Shown piece after piece: positions 1,513-14,712 of a stretch of 14,712 bases of DNA. The position numbers were made by a program, and so were the translations under genes. Source of the DNA: Pseudomonadota bacterium (GTDB taxonomy: Bacteria; Pseudomonadota; Alphaproteobacteria; Acetobacterales; Acetobacteraceae); the NCBI GenBank assembly GCA_021845835.1, contig JAJZVE010000037.1, positions 1 to 14,712 on the forward strand. Reading direction: 5' to 3'. The first letter of the stretch is position 1. Every line of letters starts with the position of its first letter. The notes beneath the pieces are model-generated. The model was not told the DNA's origin, did no database searches, and saw only the letters and a program-made list of their open reading frames with translations.

Positions 1513-1513
1513 G

Positions 1514-2059: not shown

Positions 2060-2064
2060 CCGGC

Positions 2065-2092
2065 TTGACGAACCTTCCGGAGCCGGCATAAG
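2065..2092 (+). promoter_or_regulatory. Predicted promoter for the 2121-3443 gene cluster
   Basis: TTGACG (2065-2070) and CATAAG (2087-2092) are 16 bases apart and match the sigma-70 type -35/-10 boxes at 5 and 4 of 6 positions. Transcription would begin near 2099, about 22 bases before ATG 2121. A dyad CCGGCT/AGCCGG (2060-2065, 2081-2086) fills the spacer and could be an operator, or a leftover terminator stem of the upstream gene, although no T-run follows it. Confidence 0.45.
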
Positions 2093-2120
2093 GTCGCTCC
2101 CACGGAGAGGTGATCAAGCC

Positions 2121-2405
2121 ATGACCACTTGTGAGTTGACGGGCTGCGATGTGTCGCAGCCCGAACAGACTTCCATTGCCGTCCGCCTGCCTAGCGCCGT
2201 CAGCACCGGCACCCTGATCGAACGCCGCGGCCCGCTGCTGGTCGCCTGGCGCGATCTGCGCTTCGGCGGCCTGCATCACAGCGACTGGTTCGACGCGGCG
2301 ACCGGCTACCGCTGGATGGATTTCGACATCGACCCGGACACGCGGGAGAAAGTGCCGCCGAAGCACGGCGCGGTGATGCCGCGCCTGGAAGTGCCAGCGG
2401 CGTGA
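2121..2405 (+). CDS. Small phage protein of unknown function (94 aa)
   Basis: The ATG at 2121 is preceded by GGAGAGG at 2104-2110, and the next gene overlaps its stop by four bases, so translation is coupled. The product is soluble-looking, with a Trp/His/Asp-rich middle (VAWRDLRFGGLHHSDWFD, then GYRWMDFDIDPD) and an early TTCELTGCDV stretch with two cysteines five residues apart. I do not recognise a family. Position between the fiber genes and an RmlC-like gene makes a tail-decoration or host-interaction role possible, but nothing in the residues shows it. The reading frame stays open upstream of this ATG, but that extension overlaps the previous gene and is not believed. Confidence 0.65.
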   Translation: MTTCELTGCDVSQPEQTSIAVRLPSAVSTGTLIERRGPLLVAWRDLRFGGLHHSDWFDAATGYRWMDFDIDPDTREKVPPKHGAVMPRLEVPAA

Positions 2406-2635
2406 CCCCGGCCGTGCTGCTGGTCGCGGCGCTGCCGCTGACCGACCTGCCGCCGGACCTGAAGGTCGCGGTGGAACCGCTCTACACCGATATCTGCACC
2501 GAACTCACCCTGCAGGTCGATCCCGGCCTGACTCGCAAGCAGATCGACGCGCTGCTGCCGGCGATGCGGGCCGAGTTCGAGCAGTTCACCCGCGACGCGC
2601 AAGCCTGCGCCGACGACGAGGGGGTGACCCGGTGA
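2402..2635 (+). CDS. Small phage protein of unknown function (77 aa)
   Basis: It starts with GTG at 2402, overlapping the upstream stop as GTGA, and ends in the same GTGA overlap with the next gene. This unbroken coupling is the main reason to accept it. The product is acidic and mostly helical (VAVEPLYTDICTELTL, KQIDALLPAMRAEFEQFTRDAQA). The N-terminus (AVLLVAALPL) is hydrophobic but too short for a convincing membrane anchor. I do not recognise a family. It may be a subunit or partner of its coupled neighbours. Confidence 0.6.
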   Translation: MTPAVLLVAALPLTDLPPDLKVAVEPLYTDICTELTLQVDPGLTRKQIDALLPAMRAEFEQFTRDAQACADDEGVTR

Positions 2636-3183
2636 ACCTGCGCGCGGTGCCGACCCTGCTGCCGGGTGTGCTGGTGATCGAGTCGGAGGTCTACGCTGAC
2701 GCGCGGGGCTGTTTCCTGGAGCACTACCGCAACGCGCAACTGGCCGATCTCGGCCTGCCGGCGCCGGTGCAGTGCGACGTGACGGTCTCGCAGCGGAACG
2801 TGCTGCGCGGCCTGCACTATCAGGTGCGCGAGCCGCAGGGCAAGTTGCTGCGCGTGCTGCACGGCGCCGCCTTCGTCGCCGCGGTCGATATGCGCGAGCG
2901 GTCGCCGACCGCCGGCAAGGCGGCGTGGCTGACCCTGGACCATCCCGGCCGGGCGCTGTGGGTGCCACCGGGCTTCGCCAGCGGGTCGCTGGCGCTGGCC
3001 GACGAGATGGTGCTGGCGACGGGGTGCTCGACGCATCACCGCACCGGCAGCGACCGGGTGGTGTTCTTCGACGACCCGGATTTCGGCATCCCGTGGCCGG
3101 TCGAACTCGACGCGGCGGTCCTGTCCGATGTGGACGCGCACGCGCCGCTGCTGACGGCGGCGGCGTTCGTGCCGGGGCTGTGA
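2632..3183 (+). CDS. rmlC: RmlC-like dTDP-4-dehydrorhamnose 3,5-epimerase family protein (phage-borne, divergent active site)
   Basis: At 183 residues this has the usual RmlC length and the family's cupin landmarks in order: GCFLEHYR (26-33), VLRGLHYQ (57-64), PQGKLLRVLHGAAF (68-81), AVDMRERSPT (84-93), LWVPPGFASG (109-118), DDPDFGIPWP (147-156) and LSDVDAHAPLL (164-174). RmlC enzymes epimerise C3 and C5 of dTDP-4-keto-6-deoxyglucose on the way to dTDP-rhamnose. The catalytic His62, Lys71 and the paired Asp168 are kept. Two normally conserved positions differ: the His of PPGFAHGF is Ser117, and the Tyr of the YKCTDYY segment is lost (ATGCSTHH here). It could therefore be a C3-only epimerase, a related sugar isomerase, or a structural cupin. 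It starts with GTG at 2632 in a GTGA overlap, and the next gene overlaps as TGATG. No other nucleotide-sugar gene is in the window. Confidence 0.85.
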   Translation: MNLRAVPTLLPGVLVIESEVYADARGCFLEHYRNAQLADLGLPAPVQCDVTVSQRNVLRGLHYQVREPQGKLLRVLHGAAFVAAVDMRERSPTAGKAAWLTLDHPGRALWVPPGFASGSLALADEMVLATGCSTHHRTGSDRVVFFDDPDFGIPWPVELDAAVLSDVDAHAPLLTAAAFVPGL

Positions 3184-3443
3184 TGCGGTTTGCCGAACGC
3201 CAGAAACTCAGTTGGCGGCCTACGGCGCAGGCGCTGCCGCGATTGTTCTGGCGCGGAGCGCCGCTGCGTGAGGTCGTGTTGTTGCGCGCCTTGTTTGCGC
3301 GGCGCCGGGCGCATCAGTTGCGCCAGCACCGCTGCCGGCCGCAAGCCGATGAGTGGCACACGATCCCGGTGGACCTCGGTCTCCCGCTCGCGAGAAAACA
3401 GATCAAGCGTCACAATTCTGTGTTGACGATCTTCGTCCGCTAG
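3183..3443 (+). CDS. Small basic protein of unknown function (86 aa)
   Basis: ATG 3183 shares one base with the epimerase stop (TGATG), a typical coupled start. The product is very rich in Arg and His (RLFWRGAPLREVVLLRALFARRRAHQLRQHR) with no family I recognise. Its C-terminal third covers the promoter-like region of the next gene, and GC content falls near its end, so the last residues may not be under strong selection. It could bind nucleic acid, or be a spurious extension of the cluster. Confidence 0.45.
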   Translation: MRFAERQKLSWRPTAQALPRLFWRGAPLREVVLLRALFARRRAHQLRQHRCRPQADEWHTIPVDLGLPLARKQIKRHNSVLTIFVR

Positions 3444-3451
3444 AGTAACAA
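3423..3451 (+). promoter_or_regulatory. Predicted promoter for the 3581-4857 gene pair
   Basis: TTGACG (3423-3428) and TAACAA (3446-3451) are separated by 17 bases; the -35 box matches 5 of 6 and the -10 box only 3 of 6. The surrounding DNA is less GC-rich than its neighbours. A small dyad CACA-ATTC-TGTG (3411-3422) lies directly upstream of the -35 box. The start would be near 3458, giving a leader of about 120 bases. Confidence 0.4.
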
Positions 3452-3456
3452 GCCTT

Positions 3457-3476
3457 TACCTTGCAGCCACAAGGTA
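3457..3476 (+). promoter_or_regulatory. Operator-like inverted repeat at the predicted transcription start
   Basis: TACCTTG (3457-3463) and CAAGGTA (3470-3476) form perfect 7-base arms around a 6-base centre. The site falls at the +1 position expected from the promoter at 3423-3451, where a repressor would block initiation. No repressor gene is recognised in the window. Confidence 0.4.
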
Positions 3477-3570
3477 AGCGCGATGATAGTATCTCGGAGC
3501 TTCATCGGCCCCGGCGATGCGTCATTGCATCCCCTGTGTTCGCGCCGGGCGTGGCTGGCCGGGCGCCGAT

Positions 3571-3575
3571 GGAGG
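3571..3575 (+). promoter_or_regulatory. Shine-Dalgarno site selecting a TTG start at 3581
   Basis: A full GGAGG lies five bases before TTG 3581 and overlaps the alternative in-frame ATG at 3569, which has no good ribosome site of its own. The leader also holds a far upstream in-frame TTG at 3461, judged unlikely because it overlaps the operator-like repeat. Confidence 0.5.
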
Positions 3576-3580
3576 CTATA

Positions 3581-4378
3581 TTGGCGGCCAAAGAAAAATC
3601 GACAGAAATTTCTGTTCTCGAAATCTCGCAGGGCGAGGTTTCATTTGCGATCGTCGGCAGCACGCCGCTCGTGTTCAACCGCATGTCCGAAAAGGCGAAG
3701 GAGATGCTGCTTTTGCCGCGAGGCCGGTTGACGGACGCGGACAAGGCGGCGCGACTGAAGCACAATCCGGTCGAGGAGTACCGCGCCAGCGTCTACCGCA
3801 ACACGGGTGACGCGCCGACAACGCGGCTCAAGTTTCCCGCAGCCGGTTTCAAGCGCACCATGCAGACAGCGGCGCTCGACCTGCCAGGCACGAAGAAGAC
3901 CGAGGTTGGTCGCCTGGCCTGGGCGGTTGGCGAATACGTGGACATCTACGGCGTGCCGGAACTGAAGATGGACGTGGTGCGCTCCGCCGACATCAACCGC
4001 ACCCCGGACATTCGCACGCGGGCGATCCTGCGCGATTGGGCCTGCACGATCACGATCCGGTTCGTGCAACCGAAACTGAACGCGCGCGGCATCGCCAATC
4101 TGCTCGCGGCCGGCGGTGTCATCGCCGGTATCGGTGATGGGCGGCAGGAAAAGGGCGCGCTGAACTTCGGCCAGTTCCGGCTCGTGGACCTCGACGACGG
4201 TGATTTCCTGCGAATCACGGCGGAAGGTGGCCGGGCGGCGCAGGATGCGGCGCTCGACCAGTATCACTGCTACGACGAGGAAACCGAGAACCTGCTCGAC
4301 TGGTACTCGGCGGAAGTGATTCGACGTGGCCGTGACAAGGACAGCGGTTCGCGACGCGGGAAGGATGAACCGGCGTGA
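3581..4378 (+). CDS. Conserved-looking phage protein of unknown function (265 aa)
   Basis: The start was chosen for the GGAGG at 3571-3575; ATG 3569 would add four residues. The first ~25 residues are a beta-strand (EISQGEVSFAIVGSTPLVFNRMSEKAKEM), followed by a Lys/Asp-rich stretch, a K-F-P-A-A-G-F-K-R-T segment, ELKMDVVRSADINRTPDIRTRAILRDW, and a glycine-rich loop near the C-terminus (GGVIAGIGDGRQEKGALNFGQFRL). I know this pattern (TPL-x-SEKAK, then GIG-x-R-x-EKG-x-FG-x-F) only as an unnamed family in tailed phages, often near DNA-metabolism genes; that is memory, not a search. The glycine-rich loop faintly recalls RAMP/ferredoxin-like RNA-binding proteins, but I do not claim that fold. The downstream gene is coupled by GTGA, so the two probably act together. 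Confidence 0.75.
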   Translation: MAAKEKSTEISVLEISQGEVSFAIVGSTPLVFNRMSEKAKEMLLLPRGRLTDADKAARLKHNPVEEYRASVYRNTGDAPTTRLKFPAAGFKRTMQTAALDLPGTKKTEVGRLAWAVGEYVDIYGVPELKMDVVRSADINRTPDIRTRAILRDWACTITIRFVQPKLNARGIANLLAAGGVIAGIGDGRQEKGALNFGQFRLVDLDDGDFLRITAEGGRAAQDAALDQYHCYDEETENLLDWYSAEVIRRGRDKDSGSRRGKDEPA

Positions 4379-4857
4379 ACGCCGCCGTTCGCGAGGCGCT
4401 GCTGACCCTCGCTGACCGGCACGGGGGTCATCTGACCCCCGAACTGGTGGTCGAGGCGGCGCGGCCAAAGGATTCGCCGCTGCATCCCTACATCACCTGG
4501 GACGCCCGTACCGCCGCTGAAAAGCAGCGGCTCTACGAAGCGCGCCGGTTGATCCGCTCAGTGCGCGTCGAGATCGTCACCACGCCGCTGCTGGTGAAGG
4601 CGCCTATGTTCGTGCGCGACCCGTCCGTGGATCATCAGCGGCAAGGCTATGTCAGCACCGGTCGCCTCCGCACGGAGGCGGATCAGGCACGCGACGTGCT
4701 GGTAGCCGAGTTTACCCGCGTGCTCGGTGCCTTGCGCCGGGCGAAGGCCGTCGCGGCGGTGCTCGGTATGGACGACGCCGTGATGGAGATCGAGCAGCGT
4801 GTCAACGCGGTGCTCGGGCGTGCGCAGCAGGAAGAACCGCAGCGTGCGGTGGCTTGA
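4375..4857 (+). CDS. Conserved-looking phage protein of unknown function (160 aa), partner of the 3581 gene
   Basis: GTG 4375 overlaps the upstream stop by four bases. The N-terminal half reads LTPELVVEAARPKDSPLHPYITWD, then EKQRLYEARRLIRSVRVEI. The second half contains RDPSVDHQRQGYVSTGRL followed by a long helix (DQARDVLVAEFTRVLGALRRAKAVAAVLG). The TPE-x-VVEAA ... SPLH ... WD ... A-R-x-LIRSV pattern is familiar from unnamed tailed-phage proteins that sit beside homologues of the preceding gene. The function is unknown. The helical C-terminus could oligomerise. It is the last gene before a 379-base non-coding repeat tract. Confidence 0.72.
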   Translation: MNAAVREALLTLADRHGGHLTPELVVEAARPKDSPLHPYITWDARTAAEKQRLYEARRLIRSVRVEIVTTPLLVKAPMFVRDPSVDHQRQGYVSTGRLRTEADQARDVLVAEFTRVLGALRRAKAVAAVLGMDDAVMEIEQRVNAVLGRAQQEEPQRAVA

Positions 4858-4860
4858 GGC

Positions 4861-5236
4861 GACGCTGACTGACACGGCCGACGCGACATGGCGCGGCTGG
4901 GTGGGGCCTGACTCGGCCGGATACGGCGAGGCCGACAGGGTACGGCTGGGTGTGACGAGGCACGAGTCGGCGCGGCGGGGTGAGGCCGACAGGGTACGGC
5001 GCGACAGGACGGGGGCCGGCGGCGCGGGGTAGGGCCGTCGTGGCGGACTGAGGCTTAACGTGGCGAGGTGTGGCGAGTTACGGCGGGGCCGACGAGGCCT
5101 GGCCAAGCGACACGTGGTTCGGTTGGGTGTGGCGTGGCCAGGCGCGCTGCGGCCGTCTTGGCAAGACTAGGCGTGGCCAGGCGCGCTGCGGCCTTGGCAA
5201 GACTAGGCTAGGATTGACCAGGCGCGGATTGACACG
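4861..5236 (+). repeat. Non-coding tract of degenerate 5-base GGNNN repeats
   Basis: The 379 bases between two genes hold no convincing gene. The plus strand is strongly G-rich, with GG recurring every five bases over long runs. From 5101, eight of the first twelve pentamers begin with GG; after 5160 the phase shifts by one base and continues. Two exact 19-base copies lie 54 bases apart (4928-4946 and 4982-5000), and there is a longer tandem duplication at 5131-5205. Open frames crossing the tract on either strand are Arg/Gly- or Pro/Ser-rich shadows of the repeat. The function is unknown; candidates are a recombination-prone spacer, a packaging or replication-related site, or a G-rich RNA/DNA structure. 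Confidence 0.6.
5131..5205 (+). repeat. Imperfect tandem duplication, units of 39 and 36 bases
   Basis: Unit 1 (5131-5169) and unit 2 (5170-5205) are identical except for three bases missing from unit 2 after the shared 24-base start. Both end in TTGGCAAGACTA. They lie in the GGNNN repeat tract and look like a recent slippage or recombination product. Confidence 0.8.
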
Positions 5237-5713
5237 GTGAACCGAACGGAGACGCTGGGTTGCCCCGCGCAGCCCGGCGTCATTTTTTCTGCGGCGTCTG
5301 CGGCAAAAACCGCACGGCAGTCAGCCTACAAACGAAAAACCGCAGTCATCAACGGCCTGAGCGCGCCGCACGGGGTAAAGCAGTGGACCGCCGCGGACGC
5401 GGACATACTGCTGGAGCGGGTTCGAGCCGGGCGCAGGGTGAAGGACGTGCTGCGGGACCCTGACATGCCCGGCGCGACGTGGCTGCATGATTTCATGCGT
5501 GAAAAGCCCGACTACCGTCAACGCTTGCTGGACGCCGTTGACACATTACCGTTCAGCGTTCAGGCGCGCAACCACATGGGCATGGGGCCGCGGTTCACTG
5601 CGGCAGTTACCGATCTACGCCTGCGGGGGTTGAGCGACAAAAGCATAGCAGCGCGCCTCGGTGTGACGGCGATGACTGTTCACAAGCACCGGAAAAAGCA
5701 CAGCATCGCGTGA
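5237..5713 (+). CDS. Helix-turn-helix DNA-binding protein (158 aa), possibly terminase small subunit-like
   Basis: GTG 5237 is the only reasonable in-frame start, with GGAT seven bases upstream. Residues 1-45 are a low-complexity basic leader. Residues ~50-100 (WTAADADILLERVRAG ... DVLRDPDMPGATWLHDFMREKPDYRQRL) look like a helix-turn-helix of the kind found in small terminase-like proteins, where a DPxMP turn precedes the recognition helix. Residues ~122-153 (AVTDLRLRGLSDKSIAARLGVTAMTVHKHRKKH) are a clear second helix-turn-helix with a basic end. Two such domains suit a DNA-site-recognising packaging or regulatory protein. Against the terminase reading, no large terminase gene follows: the next gene is on the other strand, ending three bases away. 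It lies directly beside the GGNNN tract, which could be its target (inference). Confidence 0.7.
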   Translation: MNRTETLGCPAQPGVIFSAASAAKTARQSAYKRKTAVINGLSAPHGVKQWTAADADILLERVRAGRRVKDVLRDPDMPGATWLHDFMREKPDYRQRLLDAVDTLPFSVQARNHMGMGPRFTAAVTDLRLRGLSDKSIAARLGVTAMTVHKHRKKHSIA

Positions 5714-5716
5714 CGC

Positions 5717-7465
5717 TTACTTCGTCTGCGGGCTGACATACGCCTGCGCGATCTGCCCCAGGAACGCCATGATCTGCTCCGGCGCCCCGAACAACTGCGC
5801 GGTCGGGCCTAGCCCGGCCGGCACGCCGGAGACATACGACCCGTTCAGGCGCTGCGCGTTGCCGACATGCACGTTGCGGAGCATGCCGCTCGCGCCGCTG
5901 TCCTGATAGACCGAACGGGGCAGCCCGCGCGACAGGCCGAGCGCCGTCACCGACCCTTCCGGCCGACCGCCGAACACGAAGCGGTGGCTGACGGAATCGA
6001 TGTAGAACTCCCACTCCGTGTTGTCGTCCTTGAATGGTTGGTAGTGGAACCGATCGCCGGGCAGGATGTCCGGGCGCAGCGGCAGCACCACCTGCGCCGA
6101 CGCCATCAACGGCTGCGGCTCCCACCACGACATCAGATGCGCGGTCAGCGTCGCCGTGGTGGCCTTGATATCGACCGCTGGGTTCTGCGCGGCCTTGCCG
6201 TCCGGCGACAGGTCCACCAGCCAGTAGAACGTGCCGATCTCCGGTTTGAACCCGTAGCGATGCACCGAAGCGACATCGACCCCGCCGCAATAGAAGAACA
6301 TGTAGGGGCCGAACGCGGTGTTGGTGTCACCCCAGCGCGGCAGCAGGTTGGTCGGGTTCAGCATGTAGAAATTGCGCGCGCCCGCCGACGAGAAAGAGAT
6401 GCTGGACTGGATGAACCCGCCCGGATGCGGACTGTGCGTGTCCAGTTCATTCCAGCGCGTCGCGTCAATGCCCGCGAGCGCGACCTGCTGGCTGGCCCCG
6501 CCGGTCGAAGTCAGCAGCGGCGCCGGGTTGACTCGCGCCACCACGACCGGCGACACTGGTTGCGCCCCCGGCAGCGACTGCATGGTGAAGGAAAAGCCGC
6601 CGGACACCGCCGCGTTCGAGAAATAGGCGCTCTTTGGTGCCGTGGTGACGAAGAACTCGTACCAGGGAAACGGGAAGATGCCGGCGAACTTGGCGGCCCA
6701 GGTGCCCTCCGCCGCCCAGAAGTTGTCACCCGCCGGGATGTAGACATGCGGGTAACTCTCGAACGACTGCGCCAGCGCGTCGCGCAGCAGCACCTGCCGC
6801 CCCTGGTAAGGGACGAACGTGTTCGCCATCAGGCTCTGCGGCCCGACCATCATGGTGTTGAGCCACGCACTGCCGACCTGCGCCGGGCCGCCGTTCTCGG
6901 GGTTGTTGCCACCGATCAGGCCCTGGCCGAGACTGACCGGCAGCGCGTTCGGCAGGTCGCCGAGATACGCGGCCTCCGCCGTACCGGCGACGAGGCCGGA
7001 AAACGCCTGCAGAAAATAATTGAAAGATGTGAAGAACCAGGTGAAGTCCTGGCCGCGGATCACCTGTGTGCGCTGCGCCTGCGACCCGCGCTCGGCGGTC
7101 AGCCATTGCTGCGATTCGGTGACTGAGGTGACGATGCCGGCCATGACGATCGCGGGTGCCGCGCCGCGCTGCATGCCGATCAGCACGAACGAGTTCGGGG
7201 TGACGATCTCGCTCCAGGTCGGCACCGATTCCGCGCCGTTCGGGCCGCCCGGCGCCAGGTCGATCTCGAACGTGCCGGGCGTGATGCCGCGCACGCTCTT
7301 GTCGGTGGCGAGTGAGAGGATCTGGCCGCCGGTCAGCACATATTTGCCGCCCTCGTACGGATAGACCTCGACGACGCAGGTCGGCGCCGCGAAGGTCGCG
7401 ATGGCCGGTGGCGCGAGCGAGGTCGCGGTGACGACGACTTCGGGGAGGCTGGCTTGTCCGGACAT
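5717..7465 (-). CDS. Baseplate/tail hub-like structural protein
   Basis: About 582 residues. ATG 7465 shares one base with the tape measure stop (TGATG); a GTG one codon earlier (7468) is an equal alternative. The N-terminal domain (~30-140: VEVYPYEGGKYVLTGG ... GTFEIDLAPGG ... FVLIGMQRG ... VMAGIVTSV) is beta-rich and has the layout of tail hub proteins that first define an axis and then a correction function. The C-terminal part (QVVLPLRPDILPGDRFHYQPF ... WEFYIDSVSHRFVFGG ... VTALGLSRGLP) resembles the hub/late-control family segment in which a PGD turn precedes a field converting to local coordinates. Position directly after the tape measure gene supports a hub that closes the tail tube. 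The middle ~250 residues, rich in aromatics, are not assigned and may carry an inserted domain. It ends three bases from the convergent plus-strand gene, with no visible terminator. Confidence 0.72.
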   Translation of the reverse strand: MSGQASLPEVVVTATSLAPPAIATFAAPTCVVEVYPYEGGKYVLTGGQILSLATDKSVRGITPGTFEIDLAPGGPNGAESVPTWSEIVTPNSFVLIGMQRGAAPAIVMAGIVTSVTESQQWLTAERGSQAQRTQVIRGQDFTWFFTSFNYFLQAFSGLVAGTAEAAYLGDLPNALPVSLGQGLIGGNNPENGGPAQVGSAWLNTMMVGPQSLMANTFVPYQGRQVLLRDALAQSFESYPHVYIPAGDNFWAAEGTWAAKFAGIFPFPWYEFFVTTAPKSAYFSNAAVSGGFSFTMQSLPGAQPVSPVVVARVNPAPLLTSTGGASQQVALAGIDATRWNELDTHSPHPGGFIQSSISFSSAGARNFYMLNPTNLLPRWGDTNTAFGPYMFFYCGGVDVASVHRYGFKPEIGTFYWLVDLSPDGKAAQNPAVDIKATTATLTAHLMSWWEPQPLMASAQVVLPLRPDILPGDRFHYQPFKDDNTEWEFYIDSVSHRFVFGGRPEGSVTALGLSRGLPRSVYQDSGASGMLRNVHVGNAQRLNGSYVSGVPAGLGPTAQLFGAPEQIMAFLGQIAQAYVSPQTK

Positions 7466-9879
7466 CACATACCGCCCGCAGCGTACGGGCTACTCATCGC
7501 CTGCCCCGCCAGCGATCGGCTGACGCGCCGGAGATGCTCCGCAAAACTGTCCAGGGCGCTATTTACGCTAGCGACGTGTTTTCCGATTTCCTCGTAGTCC
7601 AATCTGCCCGCCGAAATATCGTTGTTCTCCGGCGCCGCCTTGTTCTGATTTTCCTTCAGGATCGGCGCCATGCCGGCTTCTTCCTCGCCCTCCAGACCGA
7701 GCCGCATCAAGTTGCTGAACTTGTTCCGGCTTCCCGGCGACAGCGGCGCGTTGCTGCGGGCGCCCTTGTTGTAGAGCCGGTACGCCTCGACCGCGTTGCC
7801 GCCGGCCTGCCGCAGATTGCCGAGATAGTGCGCGGCGCCGCCTTCGATGCTCTCCTGCTCGGTGCGCGGCGTGCCGTCCAGCCAGTGCATGACGTTGGCC
7901 GGGTTCTTCATGCCCTTCGTGTCGGTGCCGCCGGAGGATTCCATCCCCAGCACGGCGCCGAGCAGAACCGGGTTCATGCCCTGCCGCTTGGCCGCCGCCA
8001 GCATGCCGGGGATCAGGTCGGGCCGCACGCCCTGCGCGCGCAGCCCGGCGGCGTAGGCAGCCTCCTGACCCGCCACGTAGGGTGACGCACCGGCGATGCC
8101 AGCGCCGTTCTGGTAATTCAGCAGTGGCAGCGCCGAGTGCTGCAAGGCAAGCCCGGCCGCCGCCGCCGGGCGCGCGAGTTCCGGTTGACCGTTGATGATC
8201 GCCTGGCTGAACGGACTTCCTTCAACGATCGCGTACTGCGCGGTCTGGTTGCCGTTGATCAGGTCAGCCGTGTATTTGGCCGCCAGCGTCGTGTTGCCTG
8301 CCTGCACCGACTTCGTCAGCACGTCGATCAGCGCGCCACCGCCGGGGTTGTCGCGCAGGAACGTGGCGTACGACCCGGCGCCCATCGTGCGCTCCATGAA
8401 CGCCTTGACGCCGCCTCGGGTGCGGAAATGCCGCATCGCGAACTGACCGTAGATCATGGTGTGCAGCGGGTCGGACCCGACCGAGGCGTTGGCCGACTGC
8501 AACCCGGCCGCGACGCTCATACCCATTTCGCCGCTGCGCGCGGAGGGTGAGTTGCCGAAATGGAACAGGAAATCGGCGAGGCCCTGCGTGTTGATCACGC
8601 CGGCGCCGTTGCGCGACATCATGGCGACGCCGGCGTCGATCGAGCGCAGCACGTCGGCCTTGTTCATGCCGCGGGCGGTGGCGTTGGCGAAGATGTCGGA
8701 CAGCGCGCCGGCGTGCTGGGTGATGGCGTCGCCGTTGGCGCCGACCAGCCCGAGGCTGCCCATCAGGCGCATATGCGCCGAGGTGTCCACGCCGCCCATG
8801 AACGGCAGATACTCCATGCCGGTGAGCGCCTTGCCCACGCCGGCCATGTTCCCCCCGGTCGGCGACACGCCGAACCCCTGGATCAGTTTCAGCGCGCCGA
8901 GCGAGGAGTAGCCGGCGTTGGCCGCCCATTCGGCCGGGCTGAGACCGGGCTTCAGCGTGTCGTAGAGGCCAGCGCCGCCGAAGCCACCGGAGCGCGCGGC
9001 GGCGAACACGCCGCGCCGGAAATCGATGTAGGGCATCGACGCGCCGACCGCGCTGCTCTCCAGGCCGAGCAGGGTCTGCGGCGCGGTGACGACCTCCTTG
9101 ATGACCTCGCCGGCGATGTAGGCGCCGACGCCGACGCCCAGCATCCGGCCGAGGCCGCCCGCCGCGCGGGGGAACCCGAAGCCGCCGAGCAGCGGGACCG
9201 GGCCGTGGCCGCCGCCTCCACCACCTGCTCCGCCGCCTCCACCACCTGCTCCGCCGGCCCCCGCCGCCGGTGACATAGGCACCGGCAGCATGCGGTTCTC
9301 GTCCCAGGCCCGTTGGTACTGACCGGGATAGCCGAATACCTGCACGCCGGCGTTCGCGGCGTGCGCCGCGTCGTATTGCCCCGGTCGCCCGAACACCCGA
9401 CGGTGTTTCTGGTCCCGTTCGCGGTTTTCTGCCTCTGCGTTCTGCCGGTCCAGCGAAATCGTTCGTTGACGCTCGGTGGCCTCCCGCTCAATCGTGGTCC
9501 GCCGGATACGTTCGACGTGCATCCGTCCCGCGAGTTCGTCGCTCAGCAGGTTGGTTTCAACACGGATGTAGCGGCTGTTCGACTCGCGCTGCTGATTGAA
9601 AAAATCGTCCTGCAACCTGCGAACGGTGTGGAACCCGCGGATACTGTCGGCGAGTTGCGCCCGCATCTGCCTGTCGGCTGCATAGCGGTCGCGGTTCTCG
9701 TAATTCGCTTCGCTGTACGCTTGCTGGAACCGCAGGTCGCGATCTCGGTTCTCGTAACCCGCCTCGCGGTAGGTCTTGTTGTACGCGAGATCGACGTTGC
9801 GGTTTTCGTAATTGGCTTGCTGGTAAACCTTCGCCGCGGCCGGTGGAATCGCGCGCCCGGAGATGGTGATCTTAGGCAT
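7465..9879 (-). CDS. Tail tape measure protein with C-terminal lytic transglycosylase-like domain
   Basis: This is the longest gene of the window (804 residues), placed after the chaperones and before the hub. ATG 9879 has GGAGGG eight bases upstream and overlaps the chaperone stop by eight bases. Residues 1-160 are highly charged helix and include three 18-residue repeats (19-72). Residues 204-226 are a Gly-rich linker. Residues ~230-265 are hydrophobic (MLGVGVGAYIAGEVI) and could enter a membrane. Residues ~270-600 are Ala/Gly-rich. Residues ~622-708 (LIPGMLAAAKRQGMNPVLLGAVLGMESSGG ... AHYLGNLRQAGGNAVEAYRLYNKG) match an SLT lysozyme-like fold with Glu647 as likely catalytic acid. Tape measure proteins set tail length; at the known ~0.15 nm per residue the tail would be near 120 nm at most. 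The wall-cleaving domain would help DNA entry. Confidence 0.88.
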   Translation of the reverse strand: MPKITISGRAIPPAAAKVYQQANYENRNVDLAYNKTYREAGYENRDRDLRFQQAYSEANYENRDRYAADRQMRAQLADSIRGFHTVRRLQDDFFNQQRESNSRYIRVETNLLSDELAGRMHVERIRRTTIEREATERQRTISLDRQNAEAENRERDQKHRRVFGRPGQYDAAHAANAGVQVFGYPGQYQRAWDENRMLPVPMSPAAGAGGAGGGGGGAGGGGGGHGPVPLLGGFGFPRAAGGLGRMLGVGVGAYIAGEVIKEVVTAPQTLLGLESSAVGASMPYIDFRRGVFAAARSGGFGGAGLYDTLKPGLSPAEWAANAGYSSLGALKLIQGFGVSPTGGNMAGVGKALTGMEYLPFMGGVDTSAHMRLMGSLGLVGANGDAITQHAGALSDIFANATARGMNKADVLRSIDAGVAMMSRNGAGVINTQGLADFLFHFGNSPSARSGEMGMSVAAGLQSANASVGSDPLHTMIYGQFAMRHFRTRGGVKAFMERTMGAGSYATFLRDNPGGGALIDVLTKSVQAGNTTLAAKYTADLINGNQTAQYAIVEGSPFSQAIINGQPELARPAAAAGLALQHSALPLLNYQNGAGIAGASPYVAGQEAAYAAGLRAQGVRPDLIPGMLAAAKRQGMNPVLLGAVLGMESSGGTDTKGMKNPANVMHWLDGTPRTEQESIEGGAAHYLGNLRQAGGNAVEAYRLYNKGARSNAPLSPGSRNKFSNLMRLGLEGEEEAGMAPILKENQNKAAPENNDISAGRLDYEEIGKHVASVNSALDSFAEHLRRVSRSLAGQAMSSPYAAGGM
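9211..9252 (-). repeat. Perfect 21-base tandem duplication in the tape measure Gly linker
   Basis: Two identical 21-base units (9211-9231 and 9232-9252) encode a doubled AGGGGGG heptapeptide. Identity at DNA level shows a recent duplication, which keeps the frame because 21 is a multiple of three. Confidence 0.85.
9664..9825 (-). repeat. Three 18-residue coiled-coil repeats at the tape measure N-terminus
   Basis: Residues 19-36, 37-54 and 55-72 each begin with Tyr and share the core Y-x-x-A-N/G-YENR, with charged heptad-like remainders. An 18-residue spacing is five helical turns, which would put the Tyr and Asn-Arg positions on one helix face. Confidence 0.75.
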
Positions 9880-10585
9880 CCTTCCGGCCCTCCGGCGCCC
9901 GCGTGCGAATCCCCGGTTTCAGGCCGCCCTGACCGCCGCGCCGCGCCCGCCACCGCGCCACCGCGTCGAAGGCGATCCCCGACAGCGACTGCGCCAGCGA
10001 CCGCCCGGTCAGCGCCGAGGCCCAGGCCGCGCGCACGGCGGCGTTGTGCGACCCGTCGCTCGCCACGCCCTCGCGCTCGAAACGGAACTCGCGCGGGTTG
10101 TCCAGCGCCTCCATCTCCAGCACGAAATCCAGTTCGGCCGGGTTGTAGTCGATCAGCGCCTTGCCGAACGGATTCTTGTGGCCCTGGATCTTAGCTGCCT
10201 GCCACAGTTTCCGCGCCAGCAGCGTTGTCGTCGGCAGCCCGGTCTTAGCAAGGGACGCGTACGCTTCGTAAAAGGCATCACCGACTTTGCAAACCGTAGA
10301 CGCTTTTCCAGTGGCGAACGCGGCGAAATCTACGGCGCCCGTCGTAGTGAAAGGCCATGTAACGTCGCTGTCTACAAGATACAACTCCAATATAGCGCAG
10401 CATCTTGCAAAATACAAAGCGCGGCCGTCTAGCGCGTTAACATCAACTGGCGTGCCGCCAATCGCGCGACGAATTACGCTTTTAACGCGGGTGTCTACTT
10501 CCGAGTCAAATCGGATTGAAGGAATACGGAACGCGTACGTGGCGCCATCGACGTACACCTCTAGTTGGTCGCGGAGGATATCCAC
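9872..10585 (-). CDS. Tail assembly chaperone, chimeric G'-T form (237 aa)
   Basis: GTG 10585 (upstream GGTGGG) opens MDILRDQLEVYVDG. Residues 1-112 are a paralogue of the chaperone at 11184-11576: FRIPSIRFD against FRVPSIKFD, NALDG against LDALDG, AILELYL against ALLELYL, VGDAFYEAY against VGGAFRDAF. Residues ~113-237 have no counterpart there and fill the place of the T extension (WQAAKIQGHKNPFGKALIDYNPAELDFVLEMEALDNP ... basic end). In tailed phages the longer chaperone (GT) binds tape measure and tube subunits, and this gene overlaps the tape measure start by eight bases. The G-like part is ~50-55% GC and the T-like part ~65%, so the gene looks spliced. Without a start at 10585 the frame stays open far upstream, antisense to the endonuclease, which is not taken as coding. 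Confidence 0.72.
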   Translation of the reverse strand: MDILRDQLEVYVDGATYAFRIPSIRFDSEVDTRVKSVIRRAIGGTPVDVNALDGRALYFARCCAILELYLVDSDVTWPFTTTGAVDFAAFATGKASTVCKVGDAFYEAYASLAKTGLPTTTLLARKLWQAAKIQGHKNPFGKALIDYNPAELDFVLEMEALDNPREFRFEREGVASDGSHNAAVRAAWASALTGRSLAQSLSGIAFDAVARWRARRGGQGGLKPGIRTRAPEGRKDA

Positions 10586-11190
10586 CGTACACCCACCGTT
10601 GACGCACCCAAGTGTGTGGTGCAATATGATCGCATGAAAAACAAACCACTCCCGGATGTCAACTACTTGCACCTTTGTTTTGCTTACGATGCACAGTCCG
10701 GGAACCTGGTGTGGCGTAGCCGCCCTCTCCGTCACTTTGCGTCGAAAAAAGTCGGACTCGGCTGGAACACCAAATATGCAGATCGCATTGCCGGGCACGT
10801 TGACCACAGCACAGGGTACAAAAAAGTCATATTGAACGGTGTTAAATACAGCCAGTCGCGTATTATATTTAAAATGCAGCGCGGTTACGATCCAGATTAC
10901 GTAGACCATCGCAATACTAACCGGAGAGACAATACACCCGCAAATATACGTAATTGCACCAAAGCGCAAAATAACTACAACCGCCGCGCCAGTTCGCTTA
11001 GCAACACCGGGGTAAAAGGGTGCCACTGGAACAAAAAAGCCGGCAAATTCAAGGCAGAAATAACCAAAGACGGCAGCAAACACTACCTGGGTTTGTTTGA
11101 CGCCATAGAGGACGCAAAAGCGGCTTATTACGCCGCCGCTCAGCGCCTCTTTGGAGAATTTGCTCCGCTGCCGCGCAGTGTTACTAACTG
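10250..11190. mobile_element. Low-GC imported tract: HNH endonuclease plus foreign chaperone G domain
   Basis: Hand counts give ~52% GC in line 10261-10320, ~47-55% to 10560, and ~37-42% over 10861-10980, against ~67% in 10201-10260 and ~70% in 11221-11280. The left break falls near the G/T junction of the chimeric chaperone; the right break coincides with the stop codons of the endonuclease and of chaperone G. No terminal repeats or transposase are seen. The tract is best read as a homing endonuclease with co-converted flanking DNA (inference). Confidence 0.5.
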
Positions 11191-11191
11191 A
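10634..11191 (+). CDS. HNH homing-type endonuclease with C-terminal AP2 domain
   Basis: A 185-residue protein in the opposite direction to the tail operon. The N-terminus (LHLCFAYDAQSGNLVWRSR) is the usual lead-in of phage HNH/AP2 enzymes, followed by AGHVDHSTGYKKVILNGVKY. The HNH core is YVDHRNTNRRDNTPANIRNCTKAQNNYN (Asp91-His92, Asn100, Asn104, Asn113/114). The first basic/His position before RIIF is Ser75, not His, so full activity is uncertain. Residues ~124-176 form the AP2 DNA-binding domain (NTGVKGCHWNKKAGKFKAEI ... HYLGLFDAIEDAKAAYYAAAQRLFGEFA). Such enzymes cut an endonuclease-free allele and spread by repair. ATG 10634 lacks a strong ribosome site. TTGACG (10599-10604) with CAATAT (10622-10627) is a possible promoter that would place +1 at or near the ATG. 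It starts 48 bases from the divergent G'-T gene and overlaps chaperone G by eight bases tail to tail. Confidence 0.9.
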   Translation: MKNKPLPDVNYLHLCFAYDAQSGNLVWRSRPLRHFASKKVGLGWNTKYADRIAGHVDHSTGYKKVILNGVKYSQSRIIFKMQRGYDPDYVDHRNTNRRDNTPANIRNCTKAQNNYNRRASSLSNTGVKGCHWNKKAGKFKAEITKDGSKHYLGLFDAIEDAKAAYYAAAQRLFGEFAPLPRSVTN

Positions 11192-11576
11192 CAGGACTAT
11201 CTTCCGCAGCCTCGCCGCGAAATCGCTCGAAGGCGTCGCGGAAGGCGCCTCCGACCTCCCACACCAGCGCGCTCGCCTTGAGCGGGAACTTCTCGTGATC
11301 GACGACCGGTTTGCCGCCGGCGCCGGCCGACCAGCACCACGCCGGCCCGGCCTTGAGGTAGAGTTCCAGCAGCGCGCAGTTGAAGGCGAAGGCGGCGGCC
11401 ATGCCGTCCAGCGCGTCGAGGTTGCCGCGGCCCTCCGGGTCGGCCTTGCGGCGGATCGCCGCCGCGCGGTAGCCGACCTCGATGTCGAACTTGATCGACG
11501 GGACGCGGAAGACGTAGTCCTCACCGCGGACGTTGACGGTGATCTCGTCCTGCAGGACATCGCCGGAACCGGACAT
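11184..11576 (-). CDS. Tail assembly chaperone, short G form (130 aa)
   Basis: It lies just downstream of the tail tube gene, as G-type chaperones do. The sequence opens with a beta-hairpin (DEITVNVRGEDYVFRVPSIKFDIEVGYRAAAIRRKA) and continues with a helical part (LDALDGMAAAFAFNCALLELYLKAGP). It ends at TAG 11184 after EAAEDSPVS. The size and fold pattern suit G-like chaperones that coat the tape measure. A typical X-XXY-YYZ slippery site is not visible near its end, and the frame reached by -1 slippage was not followed. The G'-T gene lies in the +1 frame relative to this one and is separated from it by the endonuclease. GC is high, like the rest of the tail operon, so this copy is probably the native one. 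Confidence 0.78.
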   Translation of the reverse strand: MSGSGDVLQDEITVNVRGEDYVFRVPSIKFDIEVGYRAAAIRRKADPEGRGNLDALDGMAAAFAFNCALLELYLKAGPAWCWSAGAGGKPVVDHEKFPLKASALVWEVGGAFRDAFERFRGEAAEDSPVS

Positions 11577-11595
11577 GCGCTAGTCTTTCGTGTTG

Positions 11596-12123
11596 CTACG
11601 GGGAGATGCCGAGCGTGTTGGCGACCGTGCTGACCGCCGACGAGGCCACCGCCAGCGCGTTCTCGCCGGTGTCCATGATCGAGTTGCCGCTCGGGTCGAG
11701 CACGTCCATCGCCAGGAACGAGTAGCTGTCCCGCACGATCGCGTTGGCCGGCACGTTCTGGCTGAAGTTCGAGCACTTGCAGCCGACATAGGCGAACAGC
11801 GTCTGCTGCGCGTTCAGCCCGTCGAGCAGGTAGATGTCGAACTGGTTGCCGGCGAGCAGGTAGTTCAGGTTCTGGCCGCCGGCGAGCATCTTCAGCCCGT
11901 TCTCGGTCAGCGCGAAACTGTCCAGCGTGATGCTTGGCGACATGCGCAGTTGCTGGACTTCCTGCGGCTTGCTGGAGCCGATGCCGTAAAGCTGCTCGGC
12001 GCCCATCGGCAGCGCGAGGCCGACCGTCTGCGCGAAGGCGACGGTGGTGTCGCCGATCGCCACCGCGACGGTGTTGCCCGACCGGGCCTGGGAAGCGGTC
12101 GCCTGTGCGGAGAAACCGGGCAT
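11596..12123 (-). CDS. Major tail tube protein
   Basis: 175 residues, directly after the sheath gene, as in most contractile-tail phages. ATG 12123 has GGAGG (12133-12137) nine bases upstream. The protein is beta-rich with alternating hydrophobic strands (NTVAVAIGDTTVAFAQTVGLALPMGAEQLYGIG, SPSITLDSFALTE, FDIYLLDGLNAQQTLFAYVGCKC, DSYSFLAMDVLDPSGNSIMDTGENALAV). Tube proteins stack as hexameric rings inside the sheath. The assignment rests on position, size and strand pattern; I see no signature that names a specific family. Confidence 0.72.
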   Translation of the reverse strand: MPGFSAQATASQARSGNTVAVAIGDTTVAFAQTVGLALPMGAEQLYGIGSSKPQEVQQLRMSPSITLDSFALTENGLKMLAGGQNLNYLLAGNQFDIYLLDGLNAQQTLFAYVGCKCSNFSQNVPANAIVRDSYSFLAMDVLDPSGNSIMDTGENALAVASSAVSTVANTLGISP

Positions 12124-12139
12124 GTGCTGTGTCCTCCGC

Positions 12140-13948
12140 TCAGGCGTTCGCGACCGACGCGGCGGTCAGCGTGATCGACAGCGCCTGGATCGGTACGTAG
12201 ACGGGGATGTAGCGATTCTGCGAAACCAGCGTGGCGTTGAAGGAAATCGCCGCCACCTGCGTCGTGCCGTTGAACACGAGTTTCAGCGACGCACGGTCCC
12301 ACGACGCCAGCACGCCGTTCGAGGCGCCCCCGGTGAAGACCAGCGCGTTCAGCGTGCGGATCACCGTCTGCAGGATCAGCGCCTCAGTCGGCGGCGAGGC
12401 GATCGTGCCGACCCATCGCTGCAGCGCGGAGACCACCGAGTAGGCGAGCCACCAGCGGCAGGCGACCTGCTGGCTGGAGGTGTTCTCGACGTTGTTGTCC
12501 ACCTGCCAGGTGGTGACATCGGACAGGATGGTCGGCACGCCGCCGTTGGTGCCGGTGCGCGGCGGCTGCCAGATCGCCATCACGCCGGCGTTCTGCAGCG
12601 CGCTCAGTTGCGACTGGGTCAGCGCCACCTCGACGCCGTTGGCGTTCAGCGGCTTGTTGGTCAGCGGCAGCGCGATCTGGTTGCCGCACGCCATGCCGGC
12701 CGCTGCCGCTGCGGCGTACAGGCCCGAGTAGAGCGTGTTCAGGCCGGTCGCGGTGTCGGTGCGCCAGATGCCCGGATAGAGGTAGCAGGTCTCCAGGCTG
12801 TCCAGCGCCTCGGCGTTGGTCTGCGTGGTGGCGACGGAATCGCCGAGCGCGGAGCCGGTGAAGCCGCGGCGCCACATGCCGTAGGGCGGCGAGGAGGCGG
12901 TCGCGCAGTGCTGCGCCAGCAGCGCCGGCACGCCGGCCGCGTTGCTGTCGAGGAACACGGCCCAGCCCGGCGTGTTCAGCGCCACGTTCAGCGCGTTCGC
13001 ATAGTCGCTGTTGATCGGCGGCACGCCGCGGGCGCCGGTGAACGGCGTGGACGGGATCGCGACCGGGAAATAGGTCGCGCTGTTCACCGCCCCGCTCGCC
13101 AGCGCGCCGGAGGCGAGCGACGAGGCGAACTGGTTGACCCAGAACGGGATGTCCTGCGCCGAGACGATGTCGGCATAGGTGTAGGTGGTGCCGGAGGCGG
13201 CGGCGAGGGCGCCGGACACGCTGCTCAGCAGGCTGGTCGGCAACTGGCCGCCGGTGCCGGACAGCGACTGCGCCACGTAATAGGAGGTGCCGTTGATCGC
13301 CGCGACGAGTTGCGCGACGGTGGTGTAGCCGCCGGAGCCGATCGCGAACGACACGCTCTGCCCGGAGACCGGCGAGGACAGCGCGAACACGCCGGAGGCG
13401 GCGCCGGTGGCCGGCGCGCAGTTGTAGGTGACGCCTGTCGCCGCGCCGGTGTAGGCGACGAGGAACGGCACGCCGAGATTGTCGCCGGCGAAGGTCTGGT
13501 TGGCGTAGCCGTCGTACAACGTCAGTTTCACGCCGGCGGACGAGCCGGCCGCGACCGCCGCCTGCAACAGATTGCTCGGCGGCCCGTAATTGGTCGAGGT
13601 CAGCGTCACCGCGGCGGCGCCGGACGCATTGGTCAGCGTCAGCGCCGACTGCGTGTTCTCGGAGGCGTCGATGAAGGTGATGTACTGCGCGCCGTTCAGC
13701 GACGGCGACGGCTGCGTCAGGAACGGCACGAACGCCGCCGCCGGGCCGCCGCGCAGCGCGTTCAGCAGGTCCTGTGGGTTGGTGAACGTCACCGGCGTCT
13801 GCGGCTTCGGCCCGTAGCCGTAGCCGATGAACACCAGCGGCGGCGTCACCGGCGGCGTGTTCGGCGCGGCGGCGCTGACGTTGTCCTGGTAGTAGGCGCC
13901 CGGCAGGCTGATGTAATAGCCGCCGACATTGGTGCCCTGCTGCGGCAT
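12140..13948 (-). CDS. Contractile tail sheath protein
   Basis: 602 residues. ATG 13948 is preceded by AGAGGT about eight bases upstream. The N-terminus (GGYYISLPGAYYQDNVSAAAPN ... PPLVFIGYGYGPKPQTPVTFTNPQDLLNALRGGP) has the sheath layout of an entry strand followed by a phage-general first domain. The C-terminal third (MAIWQPPRTGTNGGVPTILSDVTTWQVDNNVENTSSQQVACRWWLAYSVVSALQRWVG ... IPVYVPIQALSITLTAA) matches the conserved sheath end that forms the inner ring contacting the tube. The middle ~80-280 is Ser/Gly/Ala/Thr-rich and is probably the outward-facing variable domain. Sheath subunits contract to drive the tube through the envelope. The presence of this gene marks the phage as contractile-tailed. 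Confidence 0.85.
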   Translation of the reverse strand: MPQQGTNVGGYYISLPGAYYQDNVSAAAPNTPPVTPPLVFIGYGYGPKPQTPVTFTNPQDLLNALRGGPAAAFVPFLTQPSPSLNGAQYITFIDASENTQSALTLTNASGAAAVTLTSTNYGPPSNLLQAAVAAGSSAGVKLTLYDGYANQTFAGDNLGVPFLVAYTGAATGVTYNCAPATGAASGVFALSSPVSGQSVSFAIGSGGYTTVAQLVAAINGTSYYVAQSLSGTGGQLPTSLLSSVSGALAAASGTTYTYADIVSAQDIPFWVNQFASSLASGALASGAVNSATYFPVAIPSTPFTGARGVPPINSDYANALNVALNTPGWAVFLDSNAAGVPALLAQHCATASSPPYGMWRRGFTGSALGDSVATTQTNAEALDSLETCYLYPGIWRTDTATGLNTLYSGLYAAAAAAGMACGNQIALPLTNKPLNANGVEVALTQSQLSALQNAGVMAIWQPPRTGTNGGVPTILSDVTTWQVDNNVENTSSQQVACRWWLAYSVVSALQRWVGTIASPPTEALILQTVIRTLNALVFTGGASNGVLASWDRASLKLVFNGTTQVAAISFNATLVSQNRYIPVYVPIQALSITLTAASVANA

Positions 13949-13960
13949 CTCGCGCTACCT

Positions 13961-14143
13961 CTAGATACGGTGCGCGGGTTCGCGCCGCGCCGCGTCGATC
14001 AGCGCGCGCCACTCCGCCGTCGTGTGCTTCTCCATGCCGTGCCGGATACGCAACAGCTTGGTGTACACCTCGTCGGACGTGCCCTTGAGGCTCGCCGCGA
14101 ACGCGGCCAGCGGGATGGGATGCTCAACGACGGTTTCGCTCAT
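13961..14143 (-). CDS. Small protein of unknown function between neck and sheath genes (60 aa)
   Basis: ATG 14143 to TAG 13961, in the same direction as its neighbours and ending 12 bases before the sheath start. The product is helical and charged (LAAFAASLKGTSDEVYTKLLRIRHGMEKHTTAEWRALIDAARREPAHRI). A weak ribosome site (GAGAGCGG) lies inside a hairpin. I do not recognise a family. Its place in the operon supports a real gene. Confidence 0.55.
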   Translation of the reverse strand: MSETVVEHPIPLAAFAASLKGTSDEVYTKLLRIRHGMEKHTTAEWRALIDAARREPAHRI

Positions 14144-14181
14144 CGGGCCGGGCCGCTCTCATGCATGCGGCCGGCACGTTA

Positions 14182-14203
14182 CGGGGCGGTTTCGTCCGCC
14201 CCG
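14182..14203 (-). promoter_or_regulatory. Strong intercistronic hairpin after the neck gene
   Basis: Arms of eight perfectly paired G/C-rich bases (14182-14189 and 14196-14203) enclose a six-base loop, nine bases past the neck gene stop. No T-run follows on the minus strand, so it is not a standard intrinsic terminator. A weaker hairpin (14151-14156 with 14167-14172) follows and covers the ribosome site of the 60-residue gene. Likely roles are mRNA end protection, attenuation or translation control (inference). Confidence 0.5.
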
Positions 14204-14212
14204 ATGCGGAAC

Positions 14213-14712
14213 TCAGGCGACGCCGGCGCCGGAATACGGCGTGAGCGTGACGCCAGTGGTGTCCGGCGCGACCGTCGGCGCGACCGCGAAGGACTGGATC
14301 ACGCCGTAGCCGGTCAGCAGGGCAACGCTCATCGGCCCGCTCACCGTCATCAGCACGTCGGCGAAGTAGAAGCCGGGCGAGCGGCCTTCCCATTCGTTCA
14401 CGTCGGTGCCGGACGCGGCCTGGAAATCGTGCCGGTTGTCGAGGCCGATATTGGCGAACACGGTCGATTTCAGCGACTGGAAGATCGCCAGCAGCGAATC
14501 GCGGTAGAAGTCGCGCTCGGCGGCGCTGCGCGACAGCACCGTCACCCGCCAGACACGTTTCGCGTAGGTGACGATCTCCCAGGTGTTGCCAGCGTCGGGT
14601 TGCGGCATGTCCTGGCCGATCGGCACCTCGTCCTGCTGGATCAGGTCAAGGTTGACGACGACGAACGGCAGCGCCTGCCAGCCGCCGACCGGCATCTGCG
14701 TCGAGATCGGAA
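14213..14712 (-). CDS. Neck/tail terminator-like protein (5' end outside window)
   Basis: The frame is open to the window edge; the first internal ATG is 14695, but PISTQ precedes it in frame, so the gene probably begins outside. The visible ~165 residues include GWQALPFVVVNLDLIQQDEVPIG, NTWEIVTYAKRVWRVTVLSRSAAERDFYRDSLLAIFQSL, and WEGRSPGFYFADVLMTVSG. A beta-sheet edge, a helix with A-x-x-F/Y-R-D and a final R-x-x-FYFADV strand suit the small terminator/completion proteins that cap the tail tube before sheath genes. The family assignment (gp12-like neck terminator) is from pattern and position only. Confidence 0.55.
   Translation of the reverse strand, partial: PISTQMPVGGWQALPFVVVNLDLIQQDEVPIGQDMPQPDAGNTWEIVTYAKRVWRVTVLSRSAAERDFYRDSLLAIFQSLKSTVFANIGLDNRHDFQAASGTDVNEWEGRSPGFYFADVLMTVSGPMSVALLTGYGVIQSFAVAPTVAPDTTGVTLTPYSGAGVA

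Follow-up and report, generated by a model that had tools for sequence, protein, structure and literature searches.

A nuclease-bearing block between two predicted tail assembly chaperone genes carries a second chaperone domain fused in frame to T

Results

Analysis of contig JAJZVE010000037.1 (GenBank assembly GCA_021845835.1, positions 1 to 14,712 of the forward strand; this whole stretch of 14,712 nt is called the window) demonstrated a block of approximately 972 nt in a phage tail operon, lying between G and T, the two genes of a predicted tail assembly chaperone pair. The block contains an HNH-AP2 endonuclease gene, oriented against the tail genes, together with a second G domain, G', which is fused in frame to T. 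Comparison with related phages suggests that a homing-type nuclease block probably severed G from T and supplied the G' that now carries T. The gene order on the minus strand is sheath, tube, G, the plus-strand nuclease, G'-T, and tape measure, and the features at the G-T site are as follows (ORF, open reading frame; GC3, G + C fraction at third codon positions; aa, amino acids).

11184..11576, minus strand: G, the resident short tail assembly chaperone (130 aa), its 3' end displaced by the insert; the G protein P0009 is 96% identical
11217..11225, minus strand: intact shift site CGA_TTT_CGC, close to the 3' end of G and conserved in relatives
10240..11211, no strand: inserted foreign block of approximately 972 nt, delimited by composition and by joining of the flanks, with edges good to within some bases
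10634..11191, plus strand: HNH-AP2 endonuclease gene, likely starting at ATG 10634 (ORF 10565-11191), with Pfam HNH_3, AP2, and PHROG 99
10250..10585, minus strand: G', a second G domain, apparently imported and starting at a GTG of its own (E value to G, 2e-20)
9872..10585, minus strand: fused G'-T gene, GTG start, 237 aa in a single frame, from the ORF list and the junction alignment
9872..10239, minus strand: resident T domain, GC3 0.89, similar to T proteins
10191..10238, minus strand: remnant of the native tail of G (AADDNAAGAETVAGS, then a stop) in the frame of G, overlapping T and matching the C-terminal 15 residues of P0009 exactly

The original prediction for this DNA, made from the sequence alone, placed an HNH-AP2 gene on the opposite strand between two chaperone genes, and the ORF list, Pfam, and PHROG confirmed both the ORFs at these positions and this arrangement. 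It also regarded the order of tube, chaperone, endonuclease, chaperone-T, and tape measure as non-standard, and the order is indeed unlike that of all 18 relatives, which are distinct contigs with a G-T region obtained from IMG/VR scans using the sheath, T, and G. No nuclease was found at the G-T site in any of the 18 relatives, and the G of P0009 is uninterrupted. None of the 18 contigs was a nuclease-free relative with two separate G genes.

Insertion into an overlapping gene pair

The block, the length of which is a multiple of three, interrupts the G-T pair just downstream of the shift site. The window G keeps CGA_TTT_CGC (11225-11217), and its frame ends eight residues past FRGE, where the last residues, AAEDSPVS, replace the native tail. 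The complete short chaperone of the original prediction is thus present as an ORF, but it is not quite the native protein. Approximately 970 bases farther along, the G frame encodes AADDNAAGAETVAGS and a stop, corresponding to the C-terminus of P0009 and unreachable from G in the present arrangement. When the flanks were joined without the 972 nt, they gave a 137-residue G that matched P0009 to the final residue, with one missing Gly and five substitutions, which demonstrates an insertion into an intact overlapping gene pair. The G frame is also in phase on both sides of the block, for which the chance is one in three. Because the joined flanks restore a P0009-type G, a chimaeric contig is unlikely to be the source of the arrangement.

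Direct repeats at the edges of the insert (GGCTGCGGAAGATA and GGCTGCCGACGACA) were considered as a footprint and rejected, since 69 of 150 random pairs equalled them; random repeat pairs drawn closer than 150 bases were skipped and not redrawn. Folding of RNA from two stretches at the insert gave nothing beyond shuffled sequences. In a separate 1570-bp contig, the T protein P0033 has 80 residues identical to the end of the window T, and its called start is an internal ATG, like that of the uninterrupted pair P0010/P0034; this contig is perhaps an allele without the insert.

Composition and divergence of the second G domain

The G + C content was 0.52 in the block, compared with 0.69 in G and 0.71 in T. 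The GC3 values were 0.585 for G' and 0.554 for the nuclease versus 0.885 for G and 0.893 for T; those of other tail genes ranged from 0.85 to 0.95, and two plus-strand genes elsewhere in the window had 0.77 and 0.80. Over a slightly shorter stretch, the GC3 of G' was 0.554, and the minimum among 181 native windows of 112 codons was 0.705. The nuclease and G' have one common foreign composition, unlike the flanking G and T, as expected if the two arrived jointly.

The paralogy of the two chaperones, predicted over approximately 112 residues, was far above chance, with 43 of 112 residues identical (38%; E value, 2e-20). In trees of the G domain, the resident G, P0009, and P0010 grouped together, and G' fell outside them on a long branch. 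A tree constrained to place G' in this group, which was chosen after the tree had been seen, was rejected with p = 0.009 (18 rows) and p = 0.034 (28 rows). G' is probably a divergent G of another lineage and no recent copy of the resident G. The proposal that a selfish element brought in a duplicate G is supported, with a refinement: the nuclease and G' share a foreign composition, but G' does not appear to be a copy of the resident G, and the homing is what we infer.

The paralogy of G and G' would also follow if the resident G had been tandemly duplicated first and the nuclease had invaded later. This course of events is very improbable, given that G' has just 38% identity to G, against 96% for P0009, that its grouping with G, P0009, and P0010 is rejected, that its composition is that of the nuclease and not that of the phage, and that none of the 18 relatives has two G genes. 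An old, fast-changing duplicate within a wider group is the version of it that the tree test does not reject (p = 0.37).

In-frame fusion of G' to T

The G'-T junction reads TCC CTT GCT and aligns without gaps with the +1-shift products predicted for the relatives. TTT_C is absent from the G'-T frame. T is joined to a G-type domain in the window by a single open frame and not by a programmed frameshift, so that the DNA directly spells out a joint between G' and T that would otherwise require the shift. The extension of approximately 125 residues that the original prediction ascribed to the second chaperone is present, but it is not new; it corresponds to the resident T, which in the relatives is the +1-frame ORF directly after G. 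The window T shares 59–66% identity with the T proteins P0002, P0003, and P0004 and 88% with P0022. In the protein database, 34 proteins were collected, including the window's own: 14 consisted of G alone, 19 of T alone, and the sole G-T fusion was that of the window. One of the scans behind these 34 scored just the 7996 candidates with the most shared words.

Overlapping G and T genes and a candidate +1 shift in the relatives

The 18 relatives were counted once each. L005, L011, L013-L015, L017-L020, L051-L054, L058-L060, L062, L063, L066, and L067 duplicate contigs already counted and were dropped. Also dropped were L065 (a separate contig, but identical to L064 across the 1500 bases compared), L008 and L016 (the opposite end of the L056 contig), L022 (ending 530 bases past its tube match, with no G or T match), and L026-L049 (distant sheath matches with no G or T matches). 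A tblastn search of both chaperones against 50,697 named phage records gave no match, and single-sequence scans of genome and viral contigs with the chaperones gave no useful match. L001, the lone genome match to the chaperones, was a chance match on a contig of cellular genes and was discarded.

The G and T ORFs overlap directly in all 18 relatives with nothing intervening, and T always lies in the +1 frame relative to G (formally +1 or -2). In 18 of 18 relatives, the G frame contains TTT_CG at one shared position near the 3' end of G, preceded by the codon CGA in 14; at the other Phe codons of the same G genes, TTT_CG was found at 5 of 120. In L021, L057, and L064, the T frame opens only 5 nt upstream of TTT, so that T has to be entered at or after that point. 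At the protein level, which carries no codons, the residue at the site is Phe in each of the 14 G proteins and the next one is Arg, Leu, or Cys, and G and T proteins could be paired by common source and equal-sized contig (P0010/P0034, P0011/P0026, and P0012/P0017). It is reported that bacterial ribosomes are especially prone to +1 shifting at UUU_Ynn (PMC5009743). The fixed frame and the conserved site favour a shift, and we conclude that this family probably makes G and, via a programmed +1 shift, G-T. CGA_UUU_CG is thus a conserved candidate +1 shift motif in an environmental phage family with contractile-tail genes.

Two further observations concern this site. The shift site of L064 (4979-4987), TCC_TTT_CGT, equals nine bases of the influenza PA-X cassette as given in PMC5009743. 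The T proteins P0002, P0004, P0015, and P0026 start with ATG or GTG exactly at the junction, the usual preceding Asp-Phe being absent from the called protein; P0002, at least, reads differently at the junction, and the junctions of these four may differ from CGA_TTT_CG.

The nuclease and its relatives around the tail operon

The nuclease matched Pfam HNH_3 above the cut-off (E value, 5e-9) and PHROG 99, 'HNH endonuclease' (E value, 1e-52). An AP2 domain follows HNH_3 as a weak match (E value, 2.5e-5; 24.9 bits, below the cut-off of 33.3). Both domains of the HNH-AP2 class are therefore present, with AP2 below its cut-off. The gene is opposite in strand to the tail genes and overlaps the end of G tail to tail by 8 bases.

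Four of the 18 relatives have a nuclease of the same family within or close to their tail genes; three of these nucleases are antisense, and none interrupts G-T:

L056, 186-773, antisense: HNH relative between sheath and tube, 38% identity
L009, 4632-5162, antisense: HNH relative
L004, 3537-3890, antisense: HNH relative
L012, 3185-3649, sense: HNH relative

Nucleases of this family settle at several points around the operon, mostly against its direction. Among the three antisense copies, the codon-aligned frame on the tail-gene strand is stop-free in two and has six stops in the third.

Such copies at other tail-gene borders, for example between sheath and tube in L056, are also in keeping with ordinary mosaic recombination, the main rival to a homing event. 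In that case, one crossover where G ends and another where T begins would have imported a donor's nuclease together with its own single G; the nuclease would be a passenger, and G' would never have been part of a mobile unit. Published phages likewise have nucleases beside tail genes (PMC4351075; PMC12846349), one being phage Adele, which together with some relatives is reported to carry a GIY-YIG gene between sheath and tube (PMC12846349), and no homing footprint was found in the window. Recombination of this kind would, however, need a left crossover lacking evident homology within a few bases of the shift site, together with a chance in-frame junction of G' and T, and it would leave the one-in-three phasing of the G frame to chance as well. 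We consider it rather unlikely, although, with neither a donor nor a footprint found, the sequence does not separate it from homing.

Homing nucleases are frequent in introns, and ICP1 is reported to splice its tape measure and terminase transcripts (PMC10448857), so the nuclease might instead lie within a self-splicing intron or an intein, with G and T rejoined after transcription or translation. An Rfam search of 9800-11700 gave no intron, the sole row with an E value of 1 or less being a microRNA family (20 bits versus a cut-off of 66); inteins as such were not searched. Splicing of G to T would leave a second G domain without purpose, and the nuclease runs antisense to the tail genes, making this the least probable of the explanations considered.

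Identity of the chaperone pair and neighbouring genes

The G/T pair sits between the tail tube and the tape measure, as in G/G-T chaperone systems. No match to G was found in Pfam or PHROG. A structure model of G built from 15 sequences had a mean pLDDT of 80, with two of five models good. Nothing in the PDB matched this model at an E value of 0.001 or less, and a viral structure library gave 459 matches, of which two reached that level, both unnamed. Nine of the 50 viral matches listed are annotated tail assembly chaperones, at weak E values of 0.011-0.18, and gp182 of Bacillus phage G, recorded as a tail assembly chaperone, is among the matches listed (E value, 0.003). Position, the frame relation of G and T, and the weak fold evidence agree in indicating that G and T are probably a tail assembly chaperone pair. 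The proteins gp181 and gp182 of Bacillus phage G were also considered as a two-chaperone precedent and set aside; the record joins gp182 from two pieces, which we read as a frameshift case.

The neighbouring tail genes in the window are as follows.

12140-13948, minus strand: sheath
11596..12123, minus strand: tail tube, the upstream neighbour; PHROG 985 virion structural protein (E value, 5e-19), with 45-64% identity to its counterpart in 8 relatives
7465..9879, minus strand: tape measure, the downstream neighbour, assigned by position; 22-34% identity to the post-T gene in the relatives giving a match

In translation, the N-terminus of the tape measure (9480-9879, minus strand) contains near-repeats around YENRDRDLRFQQAY and NYENRDRY. 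The L008 contig end carries two tandem sheath genes (8001-11017), 58% and 50% identical to that of the window, the second cut by the end of the locus. Farther from the operon, a tail fibre gene (91-1512) has a 117-bp tandem repeat at 759-988, in two copies at 80%, which encodes a repeated FTGTPTAPT...ATTAFVA, and its C-terminus is Gp53-like (PF21882). A dTDP-4-dehydrorhamnose 3,5-epimerase gene (2632-3183, plus strand; Pfam PF00908; E value, 3e-43), a sugar-nucleotide gene, lies near the tail fibre gene.

Discussion

It is proposed that the ancestor was a contractile-tailed phage that made G by ordinary translation and a little G-T via a +1 shift at CGA_UUU_CG. The block of approximately 972 nt would have entered just 3' of the shift site, bringing the oppositely oriented HNH-AP2 nuclease together with a divergent G' that has a start codon of its own. 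In this process, the nuclease would cut the G-T junction of a block-free phage, and repair would copy the block from the carrier phage. The block would give the resident G a new stop, so that only G comes from the resident gene, and translation would restart at 10585 with G' carrying T in frame, rescuing the T-bearing product. Both products, G and G'-T, may then still be made from two separate genes, with the dosage of G'-T set by GTG initiation instead of shift efficiency, and it would be G' that makes the insertion tolerable.

Several points weigh against this explanation. No direct repeat above chance was found in the flanks, which leaves a footprint of repair or of a target site unproven; no donor with the order G-nuclease-G' was found; and the arrangement occurs in one contig only. 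G' lies on a long branch, and the test noted above does not reject its placement with the resident G in a wider group. No promoter-like site was found, the one terminator-like site is fewer than in shuffled sequences, and no strong ribosome-binding site was seen for G'. Start codons are present in the T frame near the shift site in most relatives, so that, by start codons alone, T could be initiated separately there.

The conserved residues of G' also bear on this balance. G' retains 10 of the 14 columns that are invariant in 21 other G domains, each of which loses at most one; the four departures are the shift-site Phe, one Arg, and two Pro. Loss of the Phe is expected, since the fused gene needs no shift, but loss of the Arg and the two Pro suggests a relaxed or altered function. 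An earlier count of 10 of 10 invariant columns in alignment A13 was discarded as functional support, because G' was itself a row of that alignment. The recount lowered our confidence in the homing explanation a little and raised that in an alternative that treats G' as debris in decay, or as an assembly artefact, with T made by another route, for example a shift at the old site.

A shift at the surviving site would read through the antisense nuclease into G'-T, giving by arithmetic a G-antisense-G'-T product of approximately 567 aa, and this frame is open. The debris alternative draws on the four lost residues, the most of any G domain compared, and on the absence of T-frame stops through the antisense nuclease, which has a probability of 0.006 under a null of the nuclease's third positions. 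That probability rises to 0.54 under a null of phage codon usage, and one relative's antisense nuclease has six stops; as the result depends on the null, the open antisense frame was not used as evidence. G' is full length and stop-free and keeps the other 10 invariant residues, and both flanks resume in register, which is hardly expected of a chimaeric contig. G' is best regarded as complete, recognisable, and unusually divergent, and its being debris or an artefact is improbable.

Several known systems resemble the arrangement in part. In lambda tail assembly, the ratio of G to G-T set by the frameshift is reported to be crucial, and the chaperone frameshift is described as widely conserved across long-tailed phages, with T4 as the exception (PMC5009743). 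As with the lambda-type chaperones, a short G and a G-T form are encoded between tube and tape measure, and the relatives have T in another frame and a conserved shift site. Unlike in those systems, a gene of its own encodes the T-bearing form of the window in frame, with a G domain of foreign origin; the lambda shift is also -1, whereas that of the relatives would be +1 at UUU_CG.

A close parallel in design is found in the mobile ORFs of fungal mitochondria (Allomyces atp6; Glomus atp6, atp9, cox2, and nad3), in which an endonuclease block is reported to come with a foreign replacement part while the displaced native part survives downstream (PMC3630166). The window likewise has a foreign segment adjacent to a nuclease and fused in frame to a resident gene, and a remnant of what was displaced persists. 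In the fungal cases described there, the C-terminal end is replaced and the nucleases are LAGLIDADG or GIY-YIG, whereas in the window an N-terminal domain is supplied beside an antisense HNH-AP2 gene. Resident and foreign G domains also both remain in the window, and the setting is a phage tail operon, not mitochondria. By analogy, the block would work like the fungal mobile ORFs without being a member by location or by the end replaced.

Among phages, mobE in Aeh1 nrdA and mobA beside the T4 topoisomerase genes are reported as free-standing homing nucleases that split a gene into two encoded parts, as in the window; the available text mentions no spare domain in those split proteins, whereas the insert in the window would supply the lost domain (PMC2988022). 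Mycobacteriophage Corndog has an HNH gene between the tail chaperones and tmp, with unusual tape measure expression, and this gene adjoins the chaperones like that of the window. It lies, however, after the chaperones, which are reported to remain frameshift-made, and the text available mentions no duplicated domain (PMC4351075). The IPA-HNH nucleases of ICP1 and relatives have an HNH domain followed by an AP2 DNA-binding domain and are often beside essential genes, as here, but a replacement coding segment is not mentioned in the accessible part of that report (PMC10448857). A phage nuclease block with a spare chaperone or the severed domain, or one abolishing a chaperone frameshift, was not found in the portion of the open-access literature available to us.

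A stronger version of the homing explanation, which we regard as possible though doubtful, is that the block is a dedicated mobile unit, with a nuclease that targets the conserved frameshift junction and a pre-fused G' as an adaptation making its invasion harmless. If so, a homing element would carry the repair for the gene it breaks and would uncouple G from G-T dosage. The window provides a natural case in which the shift has apparently been replaced by two genes, which allows one to ask whether the shift itself or merely both products are needed. The window further illustrates how a homing nuclease may come to reside within an overlapping gene pair by bringing a substitute domain, as has been reported in fungal mitochondria.

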